Assembly: GCF_027887165.1 (NCBI RefSeq)
Contig: NC_077230.1
Location: forward strand, 263,126,476-263,190,475
Direction of reading: 5' to 3'
Length of the DNA stretch: 64,000 nucleotides
DNA from: Monodelphis domestica
Lineage: Eukaryota > Chordata > Mammalia > Didelphimorphia > Didelphidae
This document shows positions 8,119 to 56,975 of the stretch, in pieces; the stretch's first letter is position 1, and every line of letters begins with the position of its first letter. A model generated the notes under the pieces. That model had not been told where the DNA came from. It searched no databases and worked only from the letters and a program-made list of their open reading frames with translations. The translations under genes and the position numbers were made by a program.

Positions 8119-9798
8119 TGTTACAGACAAAAGAAATGACAAAAATCAGACAAGGGAATGACACTTCCCTATCAAAATAGAATTCTAGTTCCTTTCCTTC
8201 TTATATTATGGCAACTTCCTGTAGTCTTGGCTGCAAATGGGTAAGTGAAATATTACTGCATTCTGTCCTATAGACTTGTGGGATAGAAATTACTTTAAAT
8301 TAGACCTATACAAGGGCCTATTTTGAATTTTTTTTCCTTGTGTTTTTGGTTGTGTTTTTCTCTTCTGTTGATAATTGACTCATACACCTCCATAACTCAA
8401 CAATGCATCCTGAGCTGAACTGGATGGTTTTTTTTTTAACACCTACTTCAGAGGGGATTGTATTTTAATTTAAAATCCAATATTTTTTATTTTTTTGTTT
8501 GAGATTGTATTTTAATTTAAAATCCAAGATTTTGATTTTGTTCGAGAAAAGATCTTCAAGGAAGAAGCTTGATAACTCATAAATCCAGAGAATGAACTAT
8601 TTCAGAAAGATGCTGGAAAATCCACACAACATCAAGAAGATCAAGAATGAACTTTGGGTGTGGTTGATTGAACTGAACTTTGATTGAACATTTATTATAA
8701 ATGTACACATTTATGACAAAAGGGACTGCCCCTGATTTGACTTTCTGTCAATGCGCCTAGCAAAATATTGGTTTTGCTTTCTTTCTTTTCTATTCCTCCC
8801 TCACTACTGTAATTTCCTCTTAGAAAATTGAATATTGTATGCATGTGTAGTTAGAAGTGCATTTAGGACTACAAGATGATTCTCCCAATGATCATCCGGG
8901 GGGATTATGAATCTTAAAATTTCTCAGACTCTACCTTGGAACATTATCTTAAGGTTGTAGTTAAAGTTATTCCCCATTTAAACAATGGAGGAACTTGGTC
9001 AGGAATGTATTGGGAACTTTAAAATTACTCCACCCATACTTAGGCATACTTTAGGGGACGATAAAGTTGTTAAACTCCTTACTGAACAATGAAAAAGTCC
9101 CCAACCCATACTTATAGTGAGGCCAAGCCCTTAAGCTAGGTCTATTTTTAGATCTAATACAAAAGAGTGCTAAGTACCTATGAAGGTCAAATTAATCACT
9201 AAAAGGTCAAGCAAACAAAAGGCAAGTTTAACAAAAGAGGTGTGAAGTTTTAGTCTACCCAGAGAAGGTGATTAACAAGAAGATGTGAATTAAGAATGGT
9301 CAGTCTTGTGGAAAACGTCTACTGTGATTGGTGAAAATTTAGGGGAGGTGACACAAGAGAAATTTCTCTTTAAAAGGAGCTGTCTGAATCAGTTCAAGGG
9401 GAGTTCAATTGAGTTCAGCCTTGGTAGCTGAATTGGAGCTTGGACTAGTTGGAGTAGCTGGGTCTCTGAACACTAGAGTTTTGCTTAAAAAGATCTTGTG
9501 GTGACTGATAACAGACTGACTAGTCTCTCTTAAAGCTCAGGCCTAGGCCCTTTCCTACTATTTTCTCTGCCTCTCTCTCTCTCCCTTTCCTTAATCCCTT
9601 CATTTGTATTAATTAAAATCTCCATAAAACCCAGCTGACTTGGGTATTTCCTATTTGGGAATTTTTCCCATGGCAACCACTTATTTTTGATATAAAATCA
9701 AGACACTAAAATTACCTTTACAGTTTGGGCAATTCACAGTCTTGAAACCCATATTTTCACGGTCACAGTTTATGGCAACCACTCTTTTGTCTGTAACA
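8119..9798 (+). mobile_element. LTR-bearing element fossil with 16-bp inverted ends
   Basis: The element starts TGTTACAGACAAAAGA and ends with the exact reverse complement of that run. It is flanked by ACCT on both sides (8,115-8,118 and 9,799-9,802), a 4-bp target duplication. Its left 330 bases match nothing else in the window. The part 8,460-8,905 resembles the tail of retrovirus-like internal sequence and recurs at 55,703-56,185. The right part is an LTR. No coding domain is readable. It lies within an older CR1/L3 copy. It could be a deleted endogenous retrovirus or, less likely, a terminal-inverted-repeat transposon that took up an LTR. Confidence 0.6.
8906..9798 (+). mobile_element. 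LTR, family A (copy 1)
   Basis: The LTR follows a G-rich tract, has 'tctctttaaaaggagctg' (TATA-like) near 9,366, 'attaaaatctccataaaacc' in the polyadenylation zone and ends CTGTAACA. Other copies of the same LTR lie at 43,596-44,125 and 49,903-53,542 (both reversed) and at 56,186-56,975. Its divergence from them is moderate, which suggests an old family. Confidence 0.7.
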
Positions 9799-43595: not shown

Positions 43596-44125
43596 GTTGT
43601 GACTGCGAAAATATGGGTTTCAAGACTGTGAATTGCCAAAACTGTAAAGATAATTTTAGTTTCTTGATTTTATATTAAAAATAAGAGGTCGCCATGGGAA
43701 AATTCCAAATATTAAATATACCCAAGTCAGCTGGGTTTTATGGAGATTTTAATTAATACAAATGAAGGAATTAAGGGAAGGGTGAGAGACAGAGTAAGAG
43801 GAAATAGTAGGAAAGGGTCATTTGGCCTAGGCCTGAGCTTTAAGAGAGATTAGTCAGTCTTTTACCATTCACCACAAGATCGTACTAAAGCAAAACTGGG
43901 TTCTTCCACTCTGAACAGAAAATAGCCTCCAAACTGAATTCAAATTGTAACTGAATTCAATCGCCTTCAACTTGTTCCTTCGCTTCCTTTTAAAGAGATT
44001 TTTCTCTTATGTCACCTCCCCTAAATTTTCACGCCTACCAATCACAGTAAATGCTTTTCCTAGGACTGCCCATTCTTAGTTCATAGCATTCTTTAATAAA
44101 CATCTTCTCTGGGTAGATTAAAACT
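43596..44125 (-). mobile_element. LTR, family A (copy 2), partial
   Basis: Reverse-strand match to 9,250-9,780: 'tatgggtttcaagactgtg', 'cccaagtcagctgggtttta', 'ttaattaatacaaatgaagg' and 'cacctcccctaaattttcac'. It is cut at both ends. At the right it abuts an L1 3' end. Confidence 0.75.
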
Positions 44126-49867: not shown

Positions 49868-49902
49868 TGTGTGTGTGCATGTGTGTGTGTGTGTGTGTGT
49901 GT
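49868..49902. repeat. (GT)n microsatellite
   Basis: Run of GT units directly before the LTR end. Confidence 0.9.
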
Positions 49903-50111
49903 TGTTACTGACAAAAGAGTGATTGCCATAAACTGTGACCGCAAAAATATGGTTTCAAGACTTTGAGTTGCCGAAACTGTAAAGATAATTTTTTGTGTCT
50001 TTTATATTAAAAATAAAGTGGTCGCCATGGAAAAATTTCCCAAATATGAAATACCCAAGTCAGCTGGGTTTTTATGGAGATTTTAATTAATACAAATAAG
50101 GAATTAAGGAA

Positions 50112-50114
<3 letters not shown>

Positions 50115-50181
<67 letters not shown>
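50115..50181. repeat. (GA)n microsatellite inside the LTR
   Basis: About 33 GA units. Copy 1 of the LTR has a short CT run at the matching place (9,571-9,585, opposite orientation), so this tract has grown. Confidence 0.95.
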
Positions 50182-50184
<3 letters not shown>

Positions 50185-50653
50185 GCCTTTCTCCTTAAGA
50201 GAGAAAACTAAGTCAATCTTTAATCACTCACCACAAGATACTTCCAAGCAAGACTCTAGTGTTCAGAGAGACCCTCCAATTTAGCTCAGGAAGCTCCACT
50301 TCAGCTTCCAAGGCTGAATTCCTTTTCAGCCACTTAGAGAGAGACCAGCCTCTAATTCAGCTCCATAGCTGAATTTCATTCAGAGGCCTTCTGACCTCCT
50401 TTTAAAGAGAATTTTCTCCTATGTCACCTCCCCTAAGTTTTCACATCTACCAATCACAGTAGATGTTTTCACAGGACTGACCATTCTTAATTCACACCTC
50501 AGTAGACTAAACTTTTGAGTAATTCATACCTGAGTAGACTAAAAGCTAAGCTTGCTTGAACTTTTAGTGATTAATTTGACATTCATAGGTACTTTGCACC
50601 CTTTTGTATTAGACCTAAAAATAGACCTAGCTTAAGGGTTTTAGCTTTACTTT

Positions 50654-50719
50654 AAGTATGGGTTAAGTACTTTTCATTGTTCAGTAAGGAGTTTACAACT
50701 TTATCTTCCCCTAAAGTAT
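50654..50719. repeat. 66-bp direct repeat, left copy
   Basis: Identical base for base to 53,349-53,414. It is LTR sequence, and the two copies bracket the RTE-like element. Confidence 0.97.
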
Positions 50720-53348
50720 ATAAAATATATAAATATATAAAACAACGTGGATGCACCCACTATCAAAACAGTGGCATCTCATTGACTACATCATTGTACG
50801 CCGGTGAGACATCCAGGATGTATAGATCACCAGAGCCATGAGAGGAGCTAAATGCTGGACAGACCACCGATTGGTTAGAGTGATTCTTTAAATGCACATT
50901 GCGCCTCGCCATCCAAAATGCGCCCAGACAGTTCACGCATTTTACAACGTGAGTCGTCTTAGAGATGCATCTTATTTGCACACATTCCAGTCCTGCCTGG
51001 ACAACAAGCTGTCTGCCAAGGGACCACTCACTGGAAGATCAACCGAGAAATGGAACCAGTTCAGAGACGCAGTGAAGGAAACATCAAAGGCAGTCCTAGG
51101 CCCAAAACAACGCAACCACCAGGACTGGTTCGACGAGAACAACACTGCAATTGAAGACCTATTGAGCAAAAAGAACAAAGCCTTTATGGAGTGGCAAAAT
51201 AACCCAAACTCTGCTCCTAAAAAGAACAGATTCAAGTCTCTCCAAGCCACGGCGCAGTGTGAGATCAGGAAAATGCAAGACCGATGGTGGGAAAAAAGGC
51301 AGAAGAAATCCAGCGCTTTGCTGATACAAAAAACTACAAACAATTTTTCAGTGCCCTCAAGACTGTCTATGGGCCATTAAAACCCACCACCACTCCCTTG
51401 CTATCCTCTGACAGTGACACTCTCATAAAAGATAAAAAAGGCATCAGCAACAGGTGGAAAGAACACTTCAGTCAGCTTCTCAACTGACCCTCTTCAGTCG
51501 ACCAAAGCGCCCTTGACCAGATCCCCCAAAACTGCACCATTGAACAACTTGACGTCCCTCCTTCAATAGAGGAAGTCCAAAAAGCCATTAAACAAATGAG
51601 TGCAAGGCACCCAGTAAAGATGGGATCCCAACCGAGGTGAACAAGGCCTTAAGTGGAAAGACGCTCCAGGCATTCCACATAGTGCTGACCAGCATATGGG
51701 AAGAGGAAGACATGCCTCCAGAACTCAGAGATGCCTCCATCGTAGCCCTATACAAGAACAAAGGCTCACAAGCAGCCTGTGACAACTACAGAGGCATCTC
51801 ACTACTCTCCACTGCTGGAAAGATCCTCGCCTGTGTTATACTCAACAGACTCCTGTCATCTGTTTCAGAGCAGAACCTGCCTGAATCACAATGTGGCTTC
51901 CAACCAGATCGCAGCACCATCGACATGGTCTTCACGGTGAGGCAAATGCAGGAAAAATGCCTTGAGCAGAACCTAAGTCTCTACATTGTCTTCATAGACC
52001 TGACAAAGGCGTTCGACACAGTGAACAGGGACGCATTGTGGGTGATACTCAGCAAGCTCGGTAGCCCAGCAAAATTCATCAAACTGATCCAGCTCTTTCA
52101 TGTCGACATGACAGGGGAAGTCCTATCTGGTGGAGAGACTTCTGATCGCTTCAACATCTCCAATGGCGTGAAACAAGGCTGTGTCCTCGCTCCGGTGCTA
52201 TTCAACCTATACTTCACCCAAGTATTGCGACATGCTGTGATGGATCTAGACCTGGGCGTCTACATCAAATACCGACTGGATGGCTCACTATTCGACCTTT
52301 GCCGCCTGACCGCAAAAACAAAGACAACAGAGAGACTCATTCTGGAAGCTCTCTTCACAGATGACTGTGCTCTCATGGCCCACCAAGAAAATCATCTTCA
52401 CACCATTGTGGACAGGTTCTCCACTGCAACAAAATTGTTTGGCCTGACTATCAGCCTCAGCAAAACAGAGGTGCTATTCCAACCTGCACCAGGGAGGCCA
52501 ACTAACCAGCCGTGCATTACAATCGATGGCACGCAGCTTTCTAATGTCAACACTTTCAAGTACCTGGGCAGCACCATTGCCAATGACGGGTCCCTAGACC
52601 ACGAGATCAATGCCAGGATCCAAAAGGCCATCCAGGCACTTGGGCGGCTGCTCTGCAAAGTCCTCCAACACAGTGGTGTAAGCACTGTGACGAAGCTCAA
52701 AGTGTACAACGCAGTGGTCCTCAGCTCGCTCCTGTAAGGTTGTGAGACATGGACATTGTACCGGAAGCACATGAAACAGCTGGAGCAATTCCACCAACAC
52801 TCTCTCTGGTCAATCATGAGGATCTGATGGCAGGACCGAATCACCAATCAAGAAGTCCTCGACAGAGCCAACTCCACCAGCATCGAAGTCATGGTCCTCA
52901 AAACCCAGCTACGATGGTCTGGACACGTCATCCGCATGGACCCACAGCGAATACCAAGACAGGTATTCTATGGTGAACTGTCAGCTGGCCTCAGGAAACA
53001 AGGCCGACCAAAGAAAAGATTCAAGGATCAGCTAAAGTCCAACTTGATGTGGGCTGGCATCACACCAAAGCAACTAGAACTTGCTGCCTCTGTCAGAAGC
53101 AGCTGGCGAACCCACATTAACCATGCTGCCACCACCTTTGAAGATGAACGACGTCAACGTCTTGCCACTGCGCGTGAACGCCGACACCAGGCCACAACTG
53201 CACCTCCCGTAACAACTGGCATCCCATGCCCCATGTGCCACAAATTTTGCGCCTCGGTCTTTGGACTTTAAAACCATATGAGGGTACACTGTAGATGAAA
53301 ACACACAAAGACAATTGCCATTCTCTGTCACCGAGAGACTACTACTAG
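50720..53348 (+). mobile_element. RTE-like non-LTR retrotransposon, 5'-truncated
   Basis: The element starts after a 25-base AT-rich filler, enters at the end of the endonuclease domain and runs to a 3' end in 'gagactactactag', a short ACT-type repeat rather than poly(A), as in RTE-clade elements. Its base use (GC-richer, CpG-containing) contrasts with the AT-rich flanks. It is flanked by the 66-bp direct repeat. The clade is inferred from the protein; BovB, the best-known mammalian RTE, has a different C-terminal sequence. Confidence 0.75.
50740..53271 (+). pseudogene. RTE-like ORF2 (endonuclease end, reverse transcriptase, Cys motif)
   Basis: The protein nicks DNA and reverse-transcribes the element RNA. 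The endonuclease end is readable near 50,750-50,880 (WMHPLSKQWHLIDYIIV, then WTDHRLV). A linker follows at 50,892-51,480 (HQDWFDENNTAIEDLLSKKN, YKQFFSALKTVYGP). Reverse transcriptase lies at 51,640-52,737: LYKNKGSQAACDNYRGISLL, YIVFIDLTKAFDTVNR, NGVKQGCVLAPVLFNLYF, FTDDCALMAHQ (catalytic DD) and FKYLGSTIANDGSLDHEI. The C-terminal part has LRWSGHVIRMDPQRIPRQVF and a terminal Cys word CPMCHKFC. Two in-frame stops (52,735 and 52,825), a stop at 51,485 and frame changes near 51,340 and 51,620 break it. The breaks are few for its length. Confidence 0.8.
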
Positions 53349-53414
53349 AAGTATGGGTTAAGTACTTTTCATTGTTCAGTAAGGAGTTTACAACTTTATC
53401 TTCCCCTAAAGTAT
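53349..53414. repeat. 66-bp direct repeat, right copy
   Basis: Identical to 50,654-50,719. The LTR goes on unbroken after it ('gcctaagtatgggtggagta'). Confidence 0.97.
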
Positions 53415-54424
53415 GCCTAAGTATGGGTGGAGTAATGTTAGAGTTCCTACCTTCCTGAGCAACGTCCCTTCATTGTTTTAAAATGGGGAATGGTCCTAAC
53501 CAAATGTTCTAAGTTAGAGTCTGAGAATTTTTATGATTCACAAGTCTGAGAAATTTTAAGATTCACTGTGTATGTGTATTCTTCCTTCTTTAACTTGTTC
53601 AAATGAGAGTGACGTTCAAGTGTCACTTGCTTCCTCCGTAACTTCCTCTTGTTTGTACCCTCCATTTGTGTGAGATAATTTCCTCAGTTTTTCCTCTTCC
53701 TTCCCCCTTTTCCAGTGCATTCCTCTTCTCTACCCTTCCATTCATCTTTTGAGATCATCTAAACACAACATAATCACATCCAAGTTATCTGCCTAATTAG
53801 ATTCTGCTAAAACCCCTAGTGATGATTAAGTTCGGAGAAGTTACAAGTATCATCTCCCTATGTAAATGTAAACAGTTTAACCTTGTTTAGTTTTTTGTTT
53901 GTTTAGTTCTCCATGATGTCTCATTTATACTTTTTGTTTTTCTCTTCAGTCCTTTGTTTATGTGCCAAATTTTCTACTTAGTTCTTTTCTTTTTCATCTG
54001 GAATGCTTAAAAGTCCTCTATTTCATTAATCCTTCCATTTCATTTTTTCTTCTTGTATTGAGTTTTGCTGGGTAGGTTATTCTTGTTTGCAAGCCTATAA
54101 CTTTTTGCTTTCTGGAATATATTATGAGTACATTCATTACAAGCTCTTCATTTCTTATGCTAAGTGCTAAATCTTGTGTTATTCTCACAGTGGCTCCTCA
54201 AAATTTGAATCTTTTCTTTTAATGTGCTTGCAGTATTTTTTCATTGATCTATGAGTTCTGGATTTTGGCTATGATATTTCTAAGAGTTTTCATTTTGGTG
54301 TTTCTTTTAGAAGGTAATCAAGGGATTCTTTCAAATTTTGCTTTGCTTACTGATATTGATATTTAAGGAGTTTTCTTTTATGATTTTTTGAAATATAAGT
54401 CTCAGCTTTAAAAAAATTAAAAGT

Positions 54425-55702: not shown

Positions 55703-56185
55703 CTGTATTTTAATTTAAAATTCAAGATTTTTGATTTTTTGTTTGAGATTGTATTTTTATAAAAATCCAAGATTTTGATTTTGTTTGAGAAAAAGATCTT
55801 CAAGGAAGAAGCTTGATGACTCCTAAATCCAGATAATATCCAGAGAATGAATTTGCAGAAAGATGCAGAAAACCTACACTACATCAAGAAGATCAAGAAT
55901 GAACTTTGGATATGGTTGATTGAACTGAAATTTGATTGAACATTTATTGTAAATGTACACATTTATGCCAAAAGGGACTGCCCCTAATTTGGCTTTCTGT
56001 CAATGTGCCTAGCAAAACATTGGTTTTGCTTTCTTTCTTTCTATTCCTCCCTCACTACTCTACTTTCCTTTTAGAAAATTGAATATTTTATATATCTACA
56101 GTTAGAAGTGCATTTAGGACTACAAGATCATTATGTTAAATGATCAACGGGGAGACTAGTCTCCCAATGATCATCAGAGGGGGAT
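55703..56185 (+). mobile_element. LTR-element internal tail, same family as 8,460-8,905
   Basis: Nearly parallel to the 8.5-kb copy: 'cttcaaggaagaagcttgat', 'gaacatttattgtaaatg', 'tttatgccaaaagggactgc' and 'tcccaatgatcatcagaggg', then a G-rich tract before the LTR. Confidence 0.7.
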
Positions 56186-56975
56186 TGTGAATCTTAAAAA
56201 TTCTCAGACCCTATTTCATAAGATTTGGTTAAGACCATTTCCCATTTTAAACAATGAAGGTACTTGATCAAGAATGTGAGACCTCTACTTCACCCATACT
56301 TAAGCAAGCCTTAGGGGAAGATAAAGTTGTAAACTCCTTGCTGAACAATGAAAAATACTTAACCCATACTTATAGTAAGGCAAAAGCTGTTAAGCTGTGC
56401 CTATTTTTAGATCTAATACAAAAGGGTGCTAAGAACCTATAAAGGTCAGGCAACTTGTAAACTTGCAAGTGGCAAAGAGGTGAGAATTTACTCAGAGGTT
56501 TTTTTCAGGTGTGAATTACTCAAAAGTTTAGTCTACTCAGGTGTGAATTAAGAATGGTCTGTCCTTTGGAAAACATCTACTGTGATTAGTAGATGAGAGA
56601 ACTTAGGGGAGGTAACATAGGAGAAAATTCTCTTTAAAAGGAGATGAGAAGCTGAGTGCAGGACTCTCTCTCAGAGAACTCTCTTTGGAGATGGAGCTGG
56701 CCAAAGCTGAACTGGTGGGTCTCTGAACACTAGAGTCTTGCTTGGACAAATCTTGTGGTGAGTTGATAAAAGGCTGACTGATCTCTCTCTTAAAGGCTTA
56801 AAAACTTAGGCTGGCCTAGGCCGGCCTATCTCTATTCTCACCATTTCCTCTCTCTCTTTCATTAATTCCTTATTTGTATTAATTAAAATCTCCATAAAAA
56901 CCCAGCTGACTTGGGTATATTTCATATTTGGGAATTTTTCCCTGGCGACCACTTTATTTTTAATATAAAAAACAT
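56186..56975 (+). mobile_element. LTR, family A (copy 4), lacking its last part
   Basis: It starts TGTGAATCTTAAAAATTC. 'ctctttaaaaggagatgag' near 56,632 corresponds to the TATA-like part of copy 1. It ends at 'tttttaatataaaaaacatc', about 95 bases short of the full LTR end. Confidence 0.8.

Follow-up and report, generated by a model that had tools for sequence, protein, structure and literature searches.

A 66-bp direct repeat flanking an RTE-like LINE in Monodelphis domestica behaves as an unusually long target-site duplication

Background

Why should a LINE be flanked by an exact direct repeat of 66 bp, when the target-site duplications of L1 typically measure 10-20 bp? The question is raised by an RTE-like LINE that sits inside an LTR-like repeat of Monodelphis domestica, within a stretch of 64,000 nucleotides that we analysed as a whole and call the window. 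A preliminary description, made from the sequence alone, had suggested that the repeat might reflect very widely spaced nicks, or else insertion by break repair or template switching. The second half of the LINE insertion reaction is described as poorly understood in the available text of PMC6895275. A natural insert with a duplication several-fold longer than those of its sister copies offers a clean record of second-strand cutting and 5' joining, and a target that exists in many similar empty copies adds to the value of the locus as such a record.

Results

The two blocks agree at 66/66 positions, both by alignment and by exact-repeat search, and the match is not extendable by even one base at either end (Table 1). 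They enclose 2,629 bases, and no further exact copy of the block was found within the 64-kb window. The direct repeats lie 1 base from the tail of the LINE and 11 bases from its 5' end, the body of the LINE starting, as judged by eye, at about 50,731 rather than at 50,720. The eleven intervening bases resemble, again by eye, a reiterated ATATAAA motif of the LINE itself. A G directly after the ACTA end of the tail, as at 53,348, is also seen in 4 of the 49 sister copies retrieved (L037, L038, L066 and L074); this count does not exceed chance, so that a junction base is the probable explanation of the G. These observations support the view that the 66-bp repeat behaves as the target-site duplication of the LINE.

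Table 1. Coordinates of the features at the insertion locus (positions within the window)
Feature	Position	Strand	Remark or basis
LTR-like target repeat, left arm	49902..50653	.	outer edge approximate; paralogue alignment edges
Native 11-bp direct repeat TAAGTATGGGT, copy 1	50653..50663	.	pair also in both window paralogues
66-bp target-site duplication, copy 1	50654..50719	.	identical 66/66 to 53,349-53,414; single in nine paralogues
Extra 5'-junction bases, eleven, AT-rich	50720..50730	+	other sequence here in longer sister copies; by eye
RTE-like LINE, 5'-truncated	50731..53347	+	endonuclease end, reverse transcriptase, short 3' UTR
Open stretch with reverse transcriptase domain	51622..52734	+	Pfam RVT_1, E=4.5e-33
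Trinucleotide-type 3' tail ACTACTACTA	53338..53347	+	shared terminus in sister copies
Extra base G, tail/duplication boundary	53348..53348	+	sequence
66-bp target-site duplication, copy 2	53349..53414	.	alignment and exact-repeat search
LTR-like target repeat, right arm	53415..53566	.	outer edge approximate
Native 11-bp direct repeat, copy 2	53418..53428	.	three bases after duplication end

The last 449 bases of the window LINE are 93-95% identical to 39 listed sister copies, the long ones among which measure 4.0-4.1 kb, giving a full length of about 4.1 kb for the family. The product of the open stretch at 51,622-52,734 has human L1 ORF2p among its closest solved chains (E 4.1e-17). An AP endonuclease domain, searched for in two sister copies, scores above the Pfam cut-offs in L051 (Exo_endo_phos 1.1e-6, Exo_endo_phos_2 3.3e-8), the same two domains lying below them in L052 (0.0027 and 5e-6), so that the order in the family is AP endonuclease (in the sisters) before reverse transcriptase (RVT_1 in the window copy). 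The tails of the family are short (ACT)n-type repeats with no poly(A); the sister copies inspected terminate in ACTACTACTA, or in ACTACCACTA and near variants, and the 3' terminus of the window LINE on the priming side is normal, its ACTACTACTA matching the sisters. Judged by domain order and tail type, these features fit the RTE group. We found no Pfam domains in the pieces at 50,913-51,319 and 51,320-51,484, and 52,828-53,268 gave a sub-threshold DUF6101 match alone (E 0.077). Bacterial and archaeal contigs yielded 26 matches to the reverse-transcriptase peptide pattern, none of which encodes a relative. The window LINE has several stops and frame breaks and, relative to the sister majority, two small gaps.

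A side observation concerns the sister L041 (6440-7201, LINE orientation), in which some 500 bases of non-LINE DNA, common to L039, come after the LINE; beyond this segment the final 74 bases of the LINE 3' end recur together with the tail. The joint falls at a shared CATGTG/CATATGAGG-like stretch, and the arrangement has the look of a 3' transduction that a template jump re-capped.

The left arm, the block and the right arm together make up one dispersed repeat of about 970 bases, for which we keep the name LTR-like from the earlier reading of the sequence, a name not based on retroviral genes. Arms and block align unbroken to two minus-strand copies within the window (56,185-56,970 and 8,905-9,697), each of which has one, diverged, block. 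In the genome searched (3.59 Gb, 13 contigs) they also align unbroken at seven loci (L002-L008), each with one block that is 66/66 identical; a query containing the block listed 39 other matches, of which these are the best seven, so that their perfect identity is partly a product of selection. The left-arm alignment edge falls at 49,898-49,913 in 7/7 of these genomic paralogues (L003 aligning as two pieces), at 49,901 in the 9-kb window copy and at 49,996 in the 56-kb copy, and block and right arm can be aligned up to 53,542-53,573 in 7/7 genomic paralogues. A partial LTR-like copy at 43,668-44,083 in the window does not extend to the block region. Thus, a single block is present in 9/9 paralogous copies that cover it, none of them orthologous, and the duplication accordingly appears to have arisen with the LINE insertion or after it. 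A query across the 5' junction found a full-length match at its own locus only, among 40 scored of 2,149 candidates, the remaining 39 of the 40 matches ending at query base 119-129 of 161. The preliminary description had called the repeat exact, the insert RTE-like and the LTR-like sequence continuous once the insert and one block are taken out. All three statements hold: the first by the 66/66 match and its inextensible ends, the second by RVT_1, the AP endonuclease of the sisters and the (ACT)n tail, and the third by the unbroken alignment to nine paralogues. Empty sites already carrying two blocks, which it had named as speaking against its reading, did not turn up, the nine paralogous (non-orthologous) sites having one each.

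To place the length of 66 bp we retrieved 49 sister copies of the LINE, comprising 29 of 39 from a first listing and 20 of 30 new ones from a second; since the listings were the best 40 among 6,030 and 2,106 candidates respectively, the sample leans to close relatives. Twenty copies of the first listing were re-fetched with longer flanks. The analysis covered the 30 sisters with both ends present, 19 of the 49 being dropped: L041 (LINE and 3' flank in common with L039); L030 and L036 (internal gaps); L031, L035, L037 and L038 (5' end past the retrieved stretch); and 12 from the second set (11 running off the stretch, and L078 with an internal gap). Junctions were tested for ungapped repeats with the 5' copy ending at -25 to +16 and the 3' copy starting at -6 to +20, against a control of 870 mismatched flank pairings. 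Flanks were 600 bases long except at nine loci (527 upstream in L034; about 130 downstream in eight, among them L074 with only 135 upstream), and the 3' flanks of L032, L033 and L075 are microsatellite-like.

Clear target-site duplications of 10-16 bp were found in 7/30 sisters (p 0.006 or less): L047 (11), L049 (16), L051 (11), L057 (15), L061 (10), L072 (12) and L034, with 12 exact bases within a 16-base stretch that has one mismatch. L056 has a likely 11-bp duplication with one mismatch (p 0.03). Unlike typical L1, the remaining 22 of the 30 show no junction duplication reaching p 0.05 against the mismatched pairings; some of these look, by eye, like very short duplications or small target-site losses. 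No junction among the 30 has a duplication above 16 bp, which by the rule of three puts the rate of long duplications in the family below about 10%. The 66-bp duplication is therefore an outlier event and no habit of this LINE family, and the tabulation of flanking repeats that the preliminary description had proposed bears out its view that the length is unusual, 66 bp lying far outside the sisters.

Two candidate explanations fall on these data. A chance origin of the repeat is ruled out, as its junction score of 66, with 66/66 identity at both junctions, is reached by 0/870 mismatched pairings of sister flanks, the highest control being 45. Long duplications as a rule of the family, in the manner of the rotifer element R9, are rejected by the 0/30 sisters above 16 bp. 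Separately, L040 has a 15-base exact repeat, TTTTTATAAACATGA, that ends 142 bases before the 5' edge and starts again 23 bases after the tail, whereas the longest repeat in 60 mismatched pairings is 12 bases. The sequences adjoining its two copies do not match on either side, and we therefore do not count it among long duplications that have decayed; were it to belong there, the tally would be 1/30.

The preliminary description had taken the identity of the two blocks as a sign of a fairly recent event, despite the several breaks in the LINE. Outside CpG, the window LINE differs from the sister majority at 37/2,282 positions (1.62%), of which 20 (0.88%) are singletons; 44 of its 81 total differences fall at the 336 CpG-prone positions (13.1%), L045 being excluded from the CpG count for a large internal gap. 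The CpG observed/expected ratio is 0.48 in the LINE against 0.09 in the flanks. On this divergence and ratio the window LINE is moderately young. The 66-bp block has zero CpG, and at 0.88-1.62% per copy only 1.2-2.1 differences are expected in 2 x 66 bases, so that zero differences have a probability of roughly 12-31% from the non-CpG rates of the LINE. Hence, the identity of the blocks is compatible with the age of the LINE and tells little about the date, and the argument from identity to a recent event falls away.

A new finding is that two copies of an 11-bp direct repeat, which belongs to the LTR-like target itself, bracket the 66-bp block. The duplication begins at the second base of the first repeat copy, and the two copies are 70 bases apart in the empty site. 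A search with a 9-base core recovers the pair in both window paralogues on the minus strand (9033/9105 and 56293/56363), at spacings of 70 and 72 bp. Random duplications fit the native repeat equally well in 0.6-2.6% of draws, a post hoc figure from lengths fixed at 66 bp or log-uniform over 17-600, which varies with the repeat length counted.

Discussion

We consider it probable, though well short of certain, that this was an ordinary target-primed insertion in which the second-strand break lay far off, as documented for L1. The bottom strand would have been nicked by the AP endonuclease of the LINE at TTTACTTT/AAGTATGG (50,653/50,654), and (ACT)n-tailed RNA would have been copied from this nick by target-primed reverse transcription, giving the 5'-truncated LINE in the LTR-like repeat. 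The top strand may have been broken 66 bases away at AAAGTAT/GCC, as against 10-16 bases in the clearly duplicated sisters, through a nick or break that arose by chance or was made by the host; filling of the 66-base gap would produce the long duplication, and end joining at an AT-rich stretch would add the 11 bases at the 5' junction. We observe directly that the block is duplicated, that the paralogous sites have it once, that the 3' terminus is intact, that the LINE is truncated and that the length is an outlier; the order and the source of the two breaks we infer. One event suffices for this account; against it stands that no duplication above 16 bp occurs in the 30 sisters, so that the event must be rare. 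Additional bases at the 5' end, joined in various ways, are described in the available parts of PMC4245944 and PMC2912911, the latter giving extra bases for 14.6% of 5'-truncated L1.

The putative nick site, TTT/AA (T/A), has a TTT 6-15 bases upstream and thus an endonuclease-like motif. Such a TTT is also present in 5/7 sisters with clear duplications, against 7,038/26,953 background positions (26%; binomial p 0.016, on a small sample). According to the portion of PMC13295347 at hand, the signature of the RTE clade is a T run about ten bases upstream with T/A at the nick; the site at 50,653/50,654 is consistent with this Tn-TA signature. Against the preferred account, the LINE tail and the primer end are unpaired at this nick, whereas several sisters share TA or CTA there (by eye).

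The bracketing by a native repeat makes template switching or unequal exchange during repair a real rival. In its two-step form, which we regard as possible if less than likely, the point of insertion was copy 2 of the 11-bp repeat (GCCT/AAGTATGGGT), where the target lost 4 bases. The right-hand AAGTATGGGT would then have re-aligned with copy 1, which lies 70 bp upstream; this could have happened in the course of repair, or afterwards through unequal exchange with a chromatid or homologue lacking the LINE. The predicted duplication is exactly 70 - 4 = 66 bp; the repeat is native to the LTR-like target, the block edges lie near both of its copies and few random draws match as well; L041 resembles a template-jump product; and a preprint (PMC12458276), in the text available, allows that homology-mediated events may explain some exceptionally long inferred duplications. 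However, this course calls for a further step in which 10-11 bp of homology must suffice, the TTT at -15 to -6 is absent at the second site and present at the first, and the coincidence test was devised after the repeat was seen. As for the possibilities that the preliminary description had listed against itself, the flanking repeats of sister copies are indeed short or undetected, but there is no sign of a separate later duplication here. We would put forward only tentatively, as an unlikely variant, that the native repeat enabled a template switch while the insertion was being completed, without two nicks, such microrepeats setting the length of rare long duplications. Were it general, long duplications should be bracketed by native 8-15 bp repeats whose spacing predicts their length; that native target repeats may predict the length of long duplications is thus a testable idea. 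Between widely spaced nicks and template switching we favour the former.

It is distinctly improbable that the insertion was endonuclease-independent, reverse transcriptase patching a 66-base replication gap or staggered break that was already there. Such an origin would suit the length of the overhang and the additional bases at the 5' junction, but endonuclease-independent inserts are often 3'-truncated, and here the tailed 3' end is complete, as in the sisters, and the endonuclease signature is present at the site. A tandem 66-bp duplication already present in this LTR copy is scarcely credible, as nothing was found in its support, 9/9 covering paralogues have a single block and the LINE would have had to land precisely at the junction; an assembly artefact is just as implausible, given junctions with normal insertion anatomy and a locus continuous in a 455-Mb contig.

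Our literature search, which left most subscription journals outside its coverage, found neither this locus nor the duplication lengths of this RTE-like LINE family described. The closest known cases are human L1 copies inserted de novo in repair-deficient cells: in the available part of PMC5223499 duplication lengths range from a few bases to several kilobases, including 40, 47, 54 and 217 bp, those above 100 bp never exceed 10% of HeLa events but make up 3/9 in a complemented line, and a more distal, unrelated nick is proposed to be used when nucleotide excision repair is lacking. PMC2912911, as far as its text was available, likewise refers to 5'-truncated L1 inserts in HeLa with extremely long duplications. 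These L1 events resemble the window insert in their endonuclease-like nick sites and in having duplications that measure from tens up to thousands of bases, but they have poly(A) and arose in cultured cells, whereas ours is a genomic RTE-like insert with an (ACT)n tail. For human L1, the part of PMC12016303 at hand gives a median duplication of 13 bp, with duplications defined as 5-25 bp. Bov-B is alike in its short-unit 3' tail, upstream T run and T/A nick (PMC13295347, same portion), and both Bov-B and SR3 combine an AP endonuclease with a reverse transcriptase (PMC1291365, in part). SR3 differs in its duplications of 10-12 bp, and the Bov-B survey counted only 10-49 bp, so that 66 bp lies outside both. 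R9, an element of rotifer rDNA whose two cleavages lie 126 bp apart (as cited in PMC6895275), is alike in being a non-LTR element with a very long duplication, but it is rDNA-specific and the long duplication is reported as a property of the element, whereas the window insert is one outlier among short ones. A duplication of 66 bp exceeds anything in the 30 sister copies, yet is within the known range for such elements.
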